From assembly GCA_029560805.1 (NCBI GenBank), contig JAKQKE010000261.1, forward strand, positions 1 to 46,746: a stretch of DNA of 46,746 nt, in the 5' to 3' direction. How positions within the stretch are numbered: position 1 is the stretch's first letter; the number at the start of each line of letters is the position of its first letter. The stretch comes from Spirochaetota bacterium (GTDB lineage Bacteria; Spirochaetota; Spirochaetia; Treponematales; UBA12059). The position numbers and the translations under genes are program-made. The notes beneath the pieces are model-generated. The model ran no database searches and was not told where the DNA came from. It saw only the letters and a program-made list of their open reading frames with translations. Shown one piece after another: positions 992 to 6,896 of this stretch.

Positions 992-2077
992 CTATTCCTG
1001 CTCTCTTTTGAACGCCTTCACATAATCCAGCACCCCGAGCTTCTGTAAATACGCTCTGACTTCTTTATCCTCGGCTTCCTTCGTCCGCCATCGCTCCTGC
1101 GGTAGTGTGATGGCCGTTACGCAGGTATCGCTATACTTCTCTCCCTTGTACACTTCAAGCACCGTGATCTTCACGGCCTTGGTGGCCATTGGCATCTTGA
1201 TCGTGTGGTACGCCACATAATCCTCGAAGGTGTACTCCATCGAAAAGGCTGGTTCTATCGATTCCACCTTGATGCGCTTCAATCGGTTATTCCGCTTATA
1301 CGCCTGCATGTTCCCAAAATCGATATACCCGTTTAGGATCATCATTTCGTCGGAATCACGAGAAAAATCAACCTTCAGCCACTCCCCTATCCCGTCTCCT
1401 GCCACGCCCTCTGCCCAGCAGCGCATGAAGTTATCGAACTCGGGCTCGAATTCCCAACCGTCGGCCGTCTTGCATATCCGGTTCATCATATACTCAGGTC
1501 GGTAATCCACAATTCTACTTCCAACAGTTTCCGTTAGATAGGACGAGGCAGTAACGCCAGATATACCCGATTCGAGGTACCTGTATTGAAGGGGCCTGTC
1601 GTACAAGGTTCCTCGGCGCTGTTTCTTGCCATCTTCCATTGAAGCTGTAGCGGTGAAGTCGGTAACGCAGCCACTAAAGTTCAGCTGGCCAAATACATTG
1701 TATGAATGATATGCTAGAAGAAATATATCACCTCCGGAAAGGACATATGTTCGAAATGGTTTGTTACTAGAAAAATTCTTCGCATCATTCATAAAAAAAC
1801 GATATCCGGTTGACATGTCAGTTTGCATAATAGCCAAGCTTGTAAGCCCCTGTATGTGCTTGGTCAGAGAGTTTCTTGTAACAATTCCACCAAGGTATAC
1901 ATAGACGCCATCGACCAACACATATTCGATATCCTCGTAAGCGACAAAGCTCAGCGTGCTTTTTTTTCTACCATCTATATCGATCCACGTACTATCATGC
2001 GGAAAGTATAGGAGATCCTGCGCTTCCACTACGCAGGATGAAAGTATAACCATCAGTAGCAGCAAGAGCTTCTTCAT
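992..2077 (-). CDS. Lipoprotein with NADase-type glycan-binding domain; candidate partner of the upstream module
   Basis: The 361-residue product starts with a lipoprotein signal: a Lys-Lys followed by Leu-rich segment and the lipobox LSSC (Cys15), so it should be membrane-anchored. Around residues 225-275 it has the pattern of the NADase-type glycan-binding (discoidin-like) domain: W-x-EG-x-GxGIGEWLKVDF, then NGY and later NNRLKRIKV. This fold is common in spirochaete and other surface proteins. AGGAGG precedes the ATG at 2077. The start overlaps the stop of the upstream gene (ATGA), so the two are translationally coupled. Base composition is lower in GC than the chromosome around it, like the C-terminal tip of its upstream neighbour. 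By position it could be an immunity or anchoring partner, which is an inference. Confidence 0.75.
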   Translation of the reverse strand: MKKLLLLLMVILSSCVVEAQDLLYFPHDSTWIDIDGRKKSTLSFVAYEDIEYVLVDGVYVYLGGIVTRNSLTKHIQGLTSLAIMQTDMSTGYRFFMNDAKNFSSNKPFRTYVLSGGDIFLLAYHSYNVFGQLNFSGCVTDFTATASMEDGKKQRRGTLYDRPLQYRYLESGISGVTASSYLTETVGSRIVDYRPEYMMNRICKTADGWEFEPEFDNFMRCWAEGVAGDGIGEWLKVDFSRDSDEMMILNGYIDFGNMQAYKRNNRLKRIKVESIEPAFSMEYTFEDYVAYHTIKMPMATKAVKITVLEVYKGEKYSDTCVTAITLPQERWRTKEAEDKEVRAYLQKLGVLDYVKAFKREQE

Positions 2078-3708
2078 CGCGGCCTCCTCTGTCCGAGCAT
2101 ATGCACCGAGAACTCAAAACCCTCGTATATGCCCCAGACGCTGAACTGATTCAACATCTGCTGGAAGTTATAGGCACCTTGGCCAACAGTACCGGCATTG
2201 TTCCAACCTGGAAGGCCTTCATTCGTCATAGGTCCAATACAGCCATTAGAGGTACCGTTTGTTCCGAACGGATGCATCAGCCATCGAGCTTCACGCGGAA
2301 GGCCGGATCGCCAACCTCCCTTGTTAAGCATATTACCCGATAGTATCTGTGCGTCCGTGTACACGCCCACCGTCGATACGCCATAGTCTCCTACATATCC
2401 CGTTAGATGCATCTTAAACCATTCTGACACTATCGTGTTACCTTCATACGTATGACCTCCCACAGTCATTGGATTGCCAGGAGTTTTATCGATAGAAGCC
2501 CATGCATAATCAGGATGAAATATTTCTGTCACGCCAGTATCAAGATCGCGTTTATAGAACGACACATCCGCACTATCAATAACGTCGTAGGACCCGCTCG
2601 CTACGCCGTCACGATAGACCGAATAAGCGTCGGCATCCCGAGTTATCGTCATGCCAGCCGTGAACTTCTCCCATACACCGTCCACCAGCCTGATACCTAT
2701 AGATTCGTTTTGTTGTAGTCCCGCTACTTTCATGCCGGTACCAACCCATTGTCCTTCCTCATCAGAATACGTATAGCCATGCTTCGTGAGCAGTTGTTCG
2801 ATTTTAAGCTTTTGCTGTAGCTGCGGACTCAAGTCAGATATCGACACACCATCCTTTATCGCAAGTCGTAGGGTCATGTCGTCCCAACCGAGTACATCCT
2901 TCACAACAGTGGGGTTAAAACTGTCTATAGTTTCGCAATGGCTTCCACGCATATCGTCAACCATATTATCTTCTAGGAAATTATACAGCGCTAACCCTCG
3001 AGAACCTTCGTATTCAGACCCCTCCACTTTCTCACGCCGTACATTCCCATCAGCGTCTATATATTCGCGATAAAAAGCCCGATCGATAGTATCCTCTATT
3101 GTCCCATCCAGCTTTACAAGCCAATAATCCCCGCTCGAGTCGTAGGACCCAAGAATGCCCGCTATAGCCGAACTATCCCCCCTATACGCCGCCTGGAGCG
3201 CGCGCACCTCGTCGAGCTGGGCGCCGTTCAGGGCTCCCAGCCCATAGGTAGCCCCGAGCGCTCCGGCCGCCTGTATGTGGCCTAGCACAGCGCTCCGCGT
3301 CTCGTTGGCCTGGCCCTCGGCTCCGTCGTCGACGCCGTTCCGGTACGCTTCGTGCGCGAGGAGTATGTTCATGCCGAAGCGCGAGCCGTCGGACAGCGCG
3401 TCGCGGCCTAGCGTGATCGTATGCGTCCCGGTGCCCGAGTCGTAGGTCGTCTGCGCGCCGAAATCGCCCGTACCGTCCTCGGCGATGTTCGTCTGACCCG
3501 CGAGTATTCGCTCGAACAGGTTCCTCTCGTCGCTCGCCGCGCCTCCCGAGGAGTACAGGGTCCGTAGCGCGCTCGCGTACTTCTTCGCCTCGTCCTGGCC
3601 CGAGAGCAGCATCTTAGCGTTCACGCCCCAGGCCTCGAAGCCAGCTATCGACTGCGCTATCGCCCCTATGCTCGCGTCCATGCCGCCCGTGCCCAGGTTC
3701 ATGGACAC
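2074..3708 (-). CDS. Orphan exoprotein C-terminal module with L,D-transpeptidase-like tip
   Basis: The 544-residue ORF opens at a GTG inside a conserved junction (NLGTGGMDASIGAIA, residues 4-18) that also occurs at residues 183-197 of the product of 4845-6896. The frame upstream is closed by TAA a few codons before the junction, so the N-terminal part of the parent protein is missing. Residues 119-125 read HEAYRNG, a degenerate HExxH-like site. DYWLVKLDG (about 194-202) matches DHWIVRLDG in the sister module. The unique tip ends with H479...S487-N-G-C490-I, resembling the His/Ser-x-Gly-Cys active site of YkuD L,D-transpeptidases, though the usual Arg after the motif is replaced. No ribosome site or promoter is obvious, so it may be a silent cassette. 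GC content falls sharply past the WLVKLDG motif. Confidence 0.6.
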   Translation of the reverse strand: MSMNLGTGGMDASIGAIAQSIAGFEAWGVNAKMLLSGQDEAKKYASALRTLYSSGGAASDERNLFERILAGQTNIAEDGTGDFGAQTTYDSGTGTHTITLGRDALSDGSRFGMNILLAHEAYRNGVDDGAEGQANETRSAVLGHIQAAGALGATYGLGALNGAQLDEVRALQAAYRGDSSAIAGILGSYDSSGDYWLVKLDGTIEDTIDRAFYREYIDADGNVRREKVEGSEYEGSRGLALYNFLEDNMVDDMRGSHCETIDSFNPTVVKDVLGWDDMTLRLAIKDGVSISDLSPQLQQKLKIEQLLTKHGYTYSDEEGQWVGTGMKVAGLQQNESIGIRLVDGVWEKFTAGMTITRDADAYSVYRDGVASGSYDVIDSADVSFYKRDLDTGVTEIFHPDYAWASIDKTPGNPMTVGGHTYEGNTIVSEWFKMHLTGYVGDYGVSTVGVYTDAQILSGNMLNKGGWRSGLPREARWLMHPFGTNGTSNGCIGPMTNEGLPGWNNAGTVGQGAYNFQQMLNQFSVWGIYEGFEFSVHMLGQRRPR

Positions 3709-3714
3709 GCCGTT
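3656..3714. repeat. 59-bp junction repeat, copy A
   Basis: These 59 bases match 6307-6365 with one mismatch (C3708 versus T6359). They encode the NG(V/M)SMNLGTGG...IGAIA junction, and the homology of the orphan module ends at this point. It is a plausible recombination site for cassette exchange. Confidence 0.85.
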
Positions 3715-3860
3715 AGTAAGTTAAGCTGTCGAGGGTCATCAATATTACCATATTCGCCGACTTCCCTAAGCGCCCCTCTCTGAATCTTTCGTATTCAACG
3801 ATCGCGAGAGCGTCTGTTCTCAAGAGCGAACAGGTAGTGCTGATGTACAATACAGCTGAC

Positions 3861-4829
3861 CTATAATATATCCTGCGCTAATCGAATGCATATAAACTCT
3901 CCCGGAGAGTCTTCTTTATGAGTGGTTAGCCTGTTGAATAGTCTCTTGTCTATAAAGTACCTATTCACTTTCCTGTTACCATCAGATGACAGCCCGCTCT
4001 GCCCCGTAGGATCGACGAGCGGGTCCGGGCCATACACCATGAACTCGTCCCAGGTCCATTCCCTTATCCCGAAATTCGGATATGCAAGAACGCCAGAACT
4101 GGTTCGTTGACCTGTAAAGACAGAAGGCACCTTACGTTGTTGCTTCGTATTGAAGGCGTTTTCATACAACGTATAAAGGTCTTCTCTTTTTGTATCCTTC
4201 TCTAGAATTACATATTCCCATTCCGCTTCAGTAATAAGCCGATACCCATTCACGCCTCGCATCCATTCAACATCGATGCCGCCGCGAATAACAGGATCCA
4301 ATTCGCCGTCGATTCTATACGCAGGCTGTAATCCCAGGCGATTGCTCAGCCAATTACAAAACACGACCGCCTCGCTCCATGTAAGGAAGATCGCCGGGCT
4401 ATCATCTCCCTGGCTATTCTCCGCAAGGCTTCCATAATACTCATGCGCAAAAGGATACCCAGTATACCCACAGTCCTCAATGAACAAGTTCCATAATCTT
4501 TGGGTAACCAAGGTTTCAGCCATTGCAAAGGATCCGAGATCGACTTGATGCGCTGGAGAGGCCCTTTTCTCTGCATCATGTTCGACATCATCAGTTCCCA
4601 TCATAAACCTTCCGCCAGCGATAGCTACCATAGTCGGGAGAGCTTGCTTAATTTCATATAAAGCTACATCACGCAGTGGCTTCAATGAACTATCAGATAG
4701 GGCAGCCGTAGCGGGATCAGGCAGTACAACTGATTCTTGATCCTCATCAATAGGGATTGTTACAGCATTTTCTTTAGAGCAAGCCGTTGAAAGCGATATA
4801 ATTGCAAGGATAATCGGTATAGTCTTCAT
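3861..4829 (-). CDS. FGE-sulfatase (SUMF1-type) domain lipoprotein; candidate partner of the upstream module
   Basis: The 322-residue product has a lipoprotein signal ending in LSTAC (Cys17). From about residue 68 it has the formylglycine-generating-enzyme fold pattern: AGGRFMMGTDD, then HQVDLGSFAMAETLVTQ, PAIFLTWSEAVVFCNWLS, GYRLITEAEWEY and IREWTWDEF. Most bacterial members of this fold are not sulfatase activators but carbohydrate- or peptide-binding variants, so the family name should not be read as an enzymatic claim. The gene follows the exoprotein module at 4845-6896 with a 15-base gap, same strand and the same lower GC. The position mirrors the 2074-3708 / 992-2077 pair, suggesting each module carries its own lipoprotein. 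An immunity role is inference. Confidence 0.75.
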   Translation of the reverse strand: MKTIPIILAIISLSTACSKENAVTIPIDEDQESVVLPDPATAALSDSSLKPLRDVALYEIKQALPTMVAIAGGRFMMGTDDVEHDAEKRASPAHQVDLGSFAMAETLVTQRLWNLFIEDCGYTGYPFAHEYYGSLAENSQGDDSPAIFLTWSEAVVFCNWLSNRLGLQPAYRIDGELDPVIRGGIDVEWMRGVNGYRLITEAEWEYVILEKDTKREDLYTLYENAFNTKQQRKVPSVFTGQRTSSGVLAYPNFGIREWTWDEFMVYGPDPLVDPTGQSGLSSDGNRKVNRYFIDKRLFNRLTTHKEDSPGEFICIRLAQDIL

Positions 4830-4844
4830 AACATGCCTTCCTTT

Positions 4845-6896
4845 TCAAGGAGTGGTGATCTTGATAGGCCGGATTTTATAGTCAAGGATTTCTTCCCATG
4901 TCGTAACGCCCCAAGTGCTAAATATGCCACCGCTACTCTTATTATAAGGATCTTGGAAATACCAACTGTCCCCTGCCTTATATACATACCCCCAGTGCTG
5001 GCTCTCTGGATCTACCCTATTGGGATTATCCATCCAGAGCATGCCCATTGTAGCGCCGCTTCCAACGAAAGCCGTCCAATCCATATCTTGCCTGGCGCTT
5101 CCGTACCACGAGGGTATCCCGGGAAGATTCATCTCTTTCTGCATAGCCTCCCAGAACACAGGTGAATCCTTAAGAAATCCCGCGGTACCAGTATCCAGCA
5201 TTCCCTTTGTATCTATCTTATCTATCGCCTTTATTATCTTGTCTTGAGAAGCGCCCATAAGCAAATAAGGCATACAATTGCTCGACAGGTAGCATGGGCC
5301 AACCTCCTGATATTTCAAGGCGCTAGCCAAATCCAACTGACTCAGGCCACCCTGACCGGTATAGGCCTTCGGATCTCCAGGCTTACCGCTCCCCATTATA
5401 ATTTCCTCCGGTACCGGCAAGTTGCTTTCTATGAGACTCGCTAAACGTGCTTCCAGCCTTTTCTTAGTATTGAAGTCTCTCTGTATTTTTTGCTCTTGCC
5501 TGGCATAGTCATAATCGCTTCGCTTCTCTCCGACAATCGCACGATACTGAGCTTCAGTTATTTTACCTTCACGATAGGCCTCGTCGATCTGACTTCTCGA
5601 AATAGAGGTGCCCTTCATACCAGACCACGTCGATATATCTTTCCCATCGTAGCCAGCCCCCTTCATGAGGCTAGTAAAGGCATTGAAGGTACTATCATCA
5701 CCCCTAAGCCATTCTTGAAGTACAGATTGCTTCCCAGTCCCCTTGATCGTTTCGCGACCGTCCTCGAAAACAACATCAGGGTTACCATCATCATAGAGGC
5801 TACCATCCAGCCGTACGATCCAATGATCCACCGTACCCGTGTTCGCCGTGTAGCTCCGCTCGTCCATGAGCGCGGCGACCATGCCTTGAGAGAACGCCTC
5901 GTCCCCATCGAGCCCGAACGAGGCTACGAGGCTCTGATAGGTACCCAGGCCCTGCGCATGCGCCAAGGCTTCGTACCGGTTGCCGGCGGCGTGCGTGCCT
6001 TCGTGCGCCATCACCGTAGCCAGTTTCGCGGCTTCCTCGGTCCCTCCGCCAAGTAGCCGATCGGACAAGAGGATGCTGTCGGGTGCTTCAGAATCGTAGC
6101 GTCCCCAATCGCTTCCCGTGTCGCCGTATCGCGCCCTGATCCGCCCCGACCAGATGCTCCGTCCCAGGTCCTCGTCGAACCCGTCGTTCGTGTAACCCAG
6201 CAGGTTTACGGCGTTCAACGTCGACAATCCTTCTTGCTGTCCGAAGATCGCGGCGATCTTCGATCTCCCAATCTTCGCGGTCTCCGACAATCCAGACAGG
6301 CTCGCCGCTATCGCCCCTATGCTCGCGTCCATGCCGCCCGTGCCCAGGTTCATGGACATGCCGTTCTTGCCAAGGTGCAGCTCGAGGAGCCCGCTCGAAA
6401 CGCGGTTGCCGTTCACGCCTTGCATTCCGAACATATCGAAGTTCGCGAGGTTGAAGGTCGTCTCCCCGGTCAGCGCGTAGTTCAGCCCCTGCCCCGCGAG
6501 GCCGCCCGCGAATTCGTTGAATCGTCCGATATCCTCGGTCGTGAAGATCTTCGAGCTCAGGCCAATACCGTTGCCGTCCTGGAGATTCCATTGCCCGAGG
6601 CTACCGGACGTTATAGAACTCGCCATACCCGTAGCGGCGCTCACGAAGCCGCCCTTGATTCCAGAGGCGAAGGCGTCGTCGTTGAAGTCGAGGCCGTTCT
6701 CGCCCCAGTACACGGCGTTGATCCCGCTCGACAGCGTGCTCGTCGTGAGCGTCTGCATGCCGCTCCATACGGAACGCGCCATCACGCCTCCGATTCCCGT
6801 CTTAGCCATGAGTCCAGTGGCCGCGATGTGCGTACCATCGGCGGCCGTGGACGCGGCCTGCCCCATCACGCCGCCGAACGCCTGTCCCGCGCCCAC
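4845..6896 (-). CDS. 5'-truncated large exoprotein module with metallopeptidase-like core and cysteine-peptidase-like tip
   Basis: The 683-residue ORF uses GTG at 6896 as first available start. The frame is open for about 45 codons further upstream (to an in-frame TGA near 7032) with coherent sequence (VVLFGNETDQDPAAYW) but no start codon, so this looks like the 3' part of a longer gene. Order: Gly/Ala-rich hydrophobic segments (1-100), a repeat-like GLNYALTGETTFN region, the junction NLGTGGMDASIGAIA (183-197), HEGTH at 298-302 (a true HExxH), DHWIVRLDG (357-365), and a unique tip. In the tip Cys535 (GPCYL), His634 (QHWGYV) and Asp649 (FQDPYN) are ordered as in papain-like peptidases. The sequence style resembles the very long spirochaete exoproteins (such as Leptospira TIGR04388), from memory only. 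GC drops at the start of the tip. Confidence 0.6.
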   Translation of the reverse strand: MGAGQAFGGVMGQAASTAADGTHIAATGLMAKTGIGGVMARSVWSGMQTLTTSTLSSGINAVYWGENGLDFNDDAFASGIKGGFVSAATGMASSITSGSLGQWNLQDGNGIGLSSKIFTTEDIGRFNEFAGGLAGQGLNYALTGETTFNLANFDMFGMQGVNGNRVSSGLLELHLGKNGMSMNLGTGGMDASIGAIAASLSGLSETAKIGRSKIAAIFGQQEGLSTLNAVNLLGYTNDGFDEDLGRSIWSGRIRARYGDTGSDWGRYDSEAPDSILLSDRLLGGGTEEAAKLATVMAHEGTHAAGNRYEALAHAQGLGTYQSLVASFGLDGDEAFSQGMVAALMDERSYTANTGTVDHWIVRLDGSLYDDGNPDVVFEDGRETIKGTGKQSVLQEWLRGDDSTFNAFTSLMKGAGYDGKDISTWSGMKGTSISRSQIDEAYREGKITEAQYRAIVGEKRSDYDYARQEQKIQRDFNTKKRLEARLASLIESNLPVPEEIIMGSGKPGDPKAYTGQGGLSQLDLASALKYQEVGPCYLSSNCMPYLLMGASQDKIIKAIDKIDTKGMLDTGTAGFLKDSPVFWEAMQKEMNLPGIPSWYGSARQDMDWTAFVGSGATMGMLWMDNPNRVDPESQHWGYVYKAGDSWYFQDPYNKSSGGIFSTWGVTTWEEILDYKIRPIKITTP
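6307..6365. repeat. 59-bp junction repeat, copy B
   Basis: Partner of 3656-3714 with a single mismatch. Here it lies inside a longer reading frame, so this copy shows the parental context of the junction. Confidence 0.85.

Follow-up and report, generated by a model that had tools for sequence, protein, structure and literature searches.

Orphan cassettes of a candidate spirochaete polymorphic toxin system with exported partner proteins

Two truncated cassettes joined to a common junction

We analysed a stretch of 46,746 nucleotides from a Spirochaetota bacterium (contig JAKQKE010000261.1 of assembly GCA_029560805.1, positions 1 to 46,746; hereafter the window). At positions 992-6896 it carries four leftward genes, ORFs A to D, lying where the initial annotation had placed them. 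They form two orphan units, each composed of a core and tip followed by a partner (A+B and C+D), with the following features:

4845-6896, minus strand: ORF A, 683 aa from a GTG start (whole open frame, 729 aa)
5652-6896, minus strand: truncated 3' scaffold end, junction and HE core of cassette A (HEGTH near 5991-6005)
6306-6365, minus strand: junction DNA block in cassette A, encoding NGMSMNLGTGGMDASIGAIA
4845-5651, minus strand: tip A, candidate Cys-His (papain/C39-like) peptidase (GPCYL near 5290-5305, QHWGY near 4985-5000)
3861-4829, minus strand: ORF B, after a 15-bp gap from A; partner B, an exported lipoprotein of FGE-sulfatase fold and candidate immunity gene of tip A
2074-3708, minus strand: ORF C, 544 aa from a GTG start
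3655-3714, minus strand: junction DNA block of orphan cassette C, at its 5' edge
3088-3708, minus strand: junction and zincin-like HE core of cassette C (HEAYR near 3340-3354)
2074-3087, minus strand: tip C, L,D-transpeptidase/carboxypeptidase-like (HPFGTNGTSNGCIGP near 2231-2277)
992-2077, minus strand: ORF D, with a 4-bp overlap at the stop of C; partner D, an exported lipoprotein with an NADase-type discoidin-like glycan-binding domain and candidate immunity gene of tip C

The initial annotation had described NLGTGGMDASIGAIA, an HE-containing core and a W-(L/I)-V-(K/R)-LDG motif as common to both modules, and all three are present in A and C (HEGTH and HEAYR in the respective cores, W-I/L-V-R/K-LDG in both). 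What the two cassettes share goes beyond protein similarity, as the DNA block itself is common: positions 6306-6365 and 3655-3714 agree at 59 of 60 bp, with DNA identity at chance level on either side. Such a block with unrelated flanks excludes a chance motif match as the source of the likeness. Across the whole genome, the junction DNA was found at these two sites and no further one (E 4e-23). Past the junction, A and C remain related through the core at 36% protein identity, and homology is lost in the tips, in line with the complete divergence that had been proposed. In an alignment of 70 cores, HE is present in 67 proteins and HExxH in the A class alone. Residues 38-189 of the C model align to zincin metallopeptidases (VIA-align Z 5-6.8, a range that the tool calls common).

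An orphan cassette had been proposed, and C is one; the reading of A as an intact exoprotein gene did not hold. ORF A is likewise truncated at its 5' side: its open frame spans 729 aa without a signal peptide or an SD-like sequence ahead of the GTG, and the full-length gene lies on another contig. The scaffold and core of cassette A have full-length homologues of 2.7-3.9k aa in relatives. An SD-like sequence is also absent upstream of the GTG of ORF C, whereas GGAAGG precedes B and GGAGG precedes D; over all loci, SD-like sequences were found at 28 of 47 partners versus 3 of 17 orphan cassettes. Third-position GC content (GC3) changes within the cassettes, from 0.76 (core A) and 0.81 (core C) to 0.51 (tip A) and 0.48 (tip C). 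Tips and partners of the window together range from 0.44 to 0.56, compared with 0.85-0.87 in three other genes, values to which the cores come close, as expected if tip and partner came in jointly from outside.

Two 150-bp direct repeats (414-563 and 637-786, 91% identical) lie between a tRNA-Met gene (196-269) and the cassettes, and a segment of the second repeat matches the 3' end of the tRNA-Met in inverted orientation (74%). Elsewhere in the same genome, contig C150 (L167) carries at positions 1-730 a partial second D, matching window positions 1024-1753 and unaccompanied by any tip.

The units could be decaying remains of former full-length genes, with no present donor or immunity role. 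The start signal is absent and the scaffold truncated, A lacks a piece of scaffold immediately upstream of 6896 (by eye), and the D copy on C150 (82% DNA identity) is itself partial. We nonetheless consider decay unlikely, since both tips have kept intact frames with putative catalytic residues, and both partners retain signal peptides and good SD sequences.

Full-length genes and their distribution in Spirochaetota

Searching the same genome with A as query returned only A and C, but the scaffold of a relative retrieved a full-length frame of ~3.55-3.6k aa on contig C5. Its product combines a Sec signal peptide, a helical scaffold of ~2,500-3,000 aa without annotation, the junction, the zincin-like HE core and, at the C-terminus, a swappable tip, with the gene of an exported partner immediately downstream. 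On C5, the tip is LDT-like (SSDGCLVY) and a D-type partner overlaps the gene stop by 7 bp. The end of this contig and contig C227 have an overlap of 141 identical bases, and the joined order reads exoprotein, D-type partner, aminotransferase, miaB-like gene. Directly before the giant gene lie two RND genes, and ahead of those are TolC-, MFP- and SbsA-like lipoprotein genes (assigned by eye).

Comparable neighbourhoods recur in relatives. RND (ACR_tran) genes, mostly paired and often with overlapping ends, stand directly upstream of many full-length genes (L032, L038, L130-L132, L140-L144, L148 and L157), and by eye count they lie near ~16 of the 26 full-length genes whose upstream sequence was inspected. 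TolC-, MFP- and SbsA-like lipoprotein genes (again by eye) precede the RND genes, making this set a candidate dedicated exporter.

With A as query, matches were obtained in 43 of 149 relatives. A junction profile identified 45 of 393 sampled Spirochaetota genomes, mostly in frames of 2.7-3.9k aa; for the contig scan, a wide alignment was too diverse and a narrower one yielded 7 loci. Relatives that bear a name include HGW-Spirochaetae-3 and Treponema sp. MAGs. Several genomes hold arrays of 3-7 junction copies. In one of them (G031), a full-length gene is followed by six orphan cassettes, nearly each with a different exported gene behind it; these cassettes have 600-1850 bp in common with the full-length gene at 84-97% DNA identity, after which tip and partner differ. 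The initial annotation had proposed to search spirochaete genomes for the junction with varied tips and lipoproteins; across the phylum, junction loci with different tips and exported partners were found, including true orphan arrays in G031. No relatives were found on plasmids (core of A as query) or phages (C as query), and there is therefore no sign of spread via those elements. At L034:8491-9621, L036, L037, L042 and L046, cassettes have as neighbours genes of the Transposase_31/Rpn type or genes whose C-terminal helix-turn-helix is similar; these may help cassettes move.

Silent-looking arrays adjoining a large exported protein would also suit antigenic variation: the giant protein would then be a surface antigen, and the cassettes, like the vlsE/tprK stores, would serve as donors for altering its exposed end. 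What varies here, however, are unrelated enzyme-like domains with conserved Cys/His, not small changes within one fold. A second gene travels with each tip and the system is carried by environmental MAGs, which together make this explanation very improbable.

Tips and partners that change together

Genes next after junction ORFs encode a signal peptide in 47 of 50 cases, compared with 86 of 305 control ORFs (called with a simple hydropathy rule, on a control set that includes spurious ORFs). The initial annotation had each module directly followed by a different lipoprotein. This stands for B and D, which have lipobox-like signal sequences (LSTAC and LSSC, respectively, by eye), but the partner class is wider: a lipobox is missing from several partners, B's closest relative among them, so that "Sec-exported protein" describes them better. 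Full-length genes without an exported partner directly downstream also occur (L041, L044, L095, L097 and L103-L105).

Partners co-vary with tips, as had been predicted. Locus pairs with both similar tips and similar partners numbered 23 versus 3.5 expected (maximum of 16 in 20,000 shuffles), and 40 versus 6.2 with longer tips; these permutation tests ignore phylogeny, and the signal also holds for locus pairs with low core identity. A D-type partner stands behind 13 of 22 LDT-like tips and none of 51 other tips. Lone D-type genes were observed at L042:13753-14703, L101:4701-5657 and L118:4760-5812, as would be expected for orphan immunity genes.

Within the genus, the exchange can be followed at a single syntenic locus. 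There, a sister species (G007) carries tip A with partner B, while G002, G004 and the genome under study carry an LDT-like tip with a D-type partner on homologous scaffolds; G001 likewise has an LDT-like tip on a homologous scaffold. The tip at this locus is thus not constant. Between G007 and G002/G004, identity amounts to 42-73% in the four 100-aa bins around and before the junction and drops to 13-26% over the last 100 aa, and the partners, B versus D, are unrelated. The aminotransferase that flanks the locus shows 63-75% identity among G007, G004 and G001. The reverse mosaic is seen between the C5 gene and G002, whose tips are 49-62% identical and whose cores are 14-43% identical. The pairing has an exception at L050:8295-10136, where an LDT-like tip occupies the syntenic locus but the aminotransferase follows without an intervening partner gene.

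As for the nature of the tips and partners, A and C gave nothing significant in Pfam, NCBIfam or PHROGs, PADLOC had no match for A, B, C or D, and a PDB sequence search with the tips found no significant match. The L,D-transpeptidase-like assignment of tip C is backed by structure comparison. Its AlphaFold model (pLDDT 86) has LDT-fold enzymes among the top VIA-align rows (Pgp2 Z 7.2, Csd6 6.8, Bd1075 6.7 and Tlde1a 5.3; Z 5-7 is common according to the tool), and its relatives keep the His and, in most cases, SxGC, though not the H of SHGC. Pfam was negative for a YkuD fold in tip C. This similarity to L,D-carboxypeptidases and Tlde1a is support rather than proof, because with Foldseek alone the C model matched nothing significantly. 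Partner D matches NF047619 (3.8e-26) and PF25302 (3.4e-20).

For tip A, the cysteine-peptidase-like assignment is tentative. Q, C and H, the putative active-site residues, are invariant between tip A and six distant tips in a small alignment (n = 7), and on this pattern tip A could be papain/C39-like; Pfam gave no match, and the AlphaFold model of A is poor (pLDDT 57). G007 is the only relative spanning the whole length of A (50% identity over A residues 7-683), and there tip A adjoins a relative of B with 57% identity. Partner B matches PF03781 (3.8e-21), and all six B-type partners directly behind a core ORF follow tips with a Cys/His pair.

M23, M15/VanY and CHAP are peptidoglycan hydrolase families. 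In a Pfam search of 46 tips, they were assigned in six, two and one, respectively, so that ~9 of the 46 have an enzyme assignment by Pfam and the others are described by motif, by distant similarity or not at all. Partner domains comprise SH3_3 (11), NADase-discoidin (9), FGE (5) or repeat domains.

These assignments bear on a further alternative, in which the giant protein acts on its own cell as an envelope or cell-shape factor, with tips that trim the cell's own peptidoglycan and neighbouring lipoproteins that are regulators or wall anchors. Tip C has cell-shape L,D-carboxypeptidases as its closest structural neighbours, the frequent SH3_3 and discoidin-like partner domains could bind wall or glycan, and spirochaetes are helical. 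However, the swapping of unrelated enzymes at one locus between sister species would be unexpected for a shape factor, as would silent truncated cassettes and a partner that changes with the tip, and the giant protein is missing from most sampled genomes. We regard this alternative as distinctly improbable.

A candidate toxin system and its relation to known ones

We favour, with a probability of about 0.75, the reading that these loci constitute a polymorphic toxin system of spirochaetes, directed against peptidoglycan and equipped with exported or periplasmic immunity, the window being a silent donor store. The toxin/immunity-type layout proposed by the initial annotation finds its counterpart across Spirochaetota in varied tips, co-varying exported partners and orphan cassettes.

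Toxicity, immunity, tip release and export through the RND/TolC genes are steps that we infer from sequence, and we rank the proposed mechanism from its firmest part to its weakest. Recombination over the shared junction and core would carry tip and partner jointly into the expressed gene. The tips (L,D-carboxypeptidase, papain-like, M23, VanY and CHAP types) would then cut peptidoglycan in the periplasm of competing cells, which are probably related ones, and the periplasmic or lipid-anchored partner would neutralise its cognate tip. The HE core may clip the tip off. Finally, the adjoining TolC/RND genes might aid export of the giant protein.

A broader proposal, which we put forward tentatively and rate as possible rather than probable, is a phylum-specific weapon class: giant Sec-exported proteins, a dedicated TolC/MFP/double-RND exporter, swappable peptidoglycan enzymes released by the zincin, and exported glycan- or wall-binding immunity proteins (discoidin-like, SH3, FGE-like). 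Immunity in such a class would possibly act by shielding the wall rather than by blocking the enzyme.

Spirochaetes are little known as contestants in bacterial warfare, and the cassette system is testable, offering dozens of toxin/immunity candidates. It holds a scaffold outside the searched families, a possible new route of protein export and candidate exported immunity folds that are unfamiliar, and it may explain large unannotated spirochaete exoproteins and their adjoining lipoproteins. In the open-access literature, searched for spirochaete polymorphic toxins, FGE-type immunity and TIGR04388, we found no description of it.

Similar to CdiA/CdiI and Rhs systems, orphan C-terminal modules are joined via a short conserved junction, but TolC/MFP/RND genes (TolC/MFP by eye) stand in place of a CdiB-type partner. 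Two full-length proteins (P0001 and P0002) were without TPS, haemagglutinin-repeat or RHS families and without DUF1020 (PF06255). As these defining families are absent from both, we rejected membership in CDI, Rhs or MafB systems.

Pgp2, Csd6 and Bd1075, the structures to which tip C aligns best (VIA Z 6.7-7.2), are self-acting shape enzymes; unlike tip C, they are neither polymorphic nor joined to an exported scaffold. The T6SS effector Tlde1a is an LDT-fold toxin acting on peptidoglycan tetrapeptides, and its immunity protein Tldi1a has a Sec signal (PMC9638812). The C+D unit resembles this pair in its LDT-like tip (VIA Z 5.3) and in a partner gene with a Sec signal, but the spirochaete tip ends a giant protein with a Sec signal and its partner has a discoidin-like domain.

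In the portions of the survey by Zhang et al. (2012, PMC3482391) relevant here, L,D-peptidase is listed as a toxin fold of polymorphic toxin systems, and spirochaetes are named under other trafficking types only. As in the systems described in those portions, a conserved exported N-terminal part precedes unrelated, swappable C-terminal enzymes, a directly downstream partner co-varies with the C-terminal domain, and standalone cassettes carry the same junction as the full-length gene. By comparison with those portions, the spirochaete scaffold has no match among the families searched, the Pfam-assignable tips are cell-wall enzymes and the partners are Sec-exported. The MafB/MafI system of Neisseria with its mafB-CT cassettes (PMC4287609) differs in that the spirochaete scaffold is far larger (3-4k aa), has neither DUF1020 nor mafA and is paired with exported partners. 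In common with MafB, the spirochaete system has a signal peptide, a variable C-terminus and a following partner gene, as well as silent cassettes without start codons and near-identical tips paired with identical partners.
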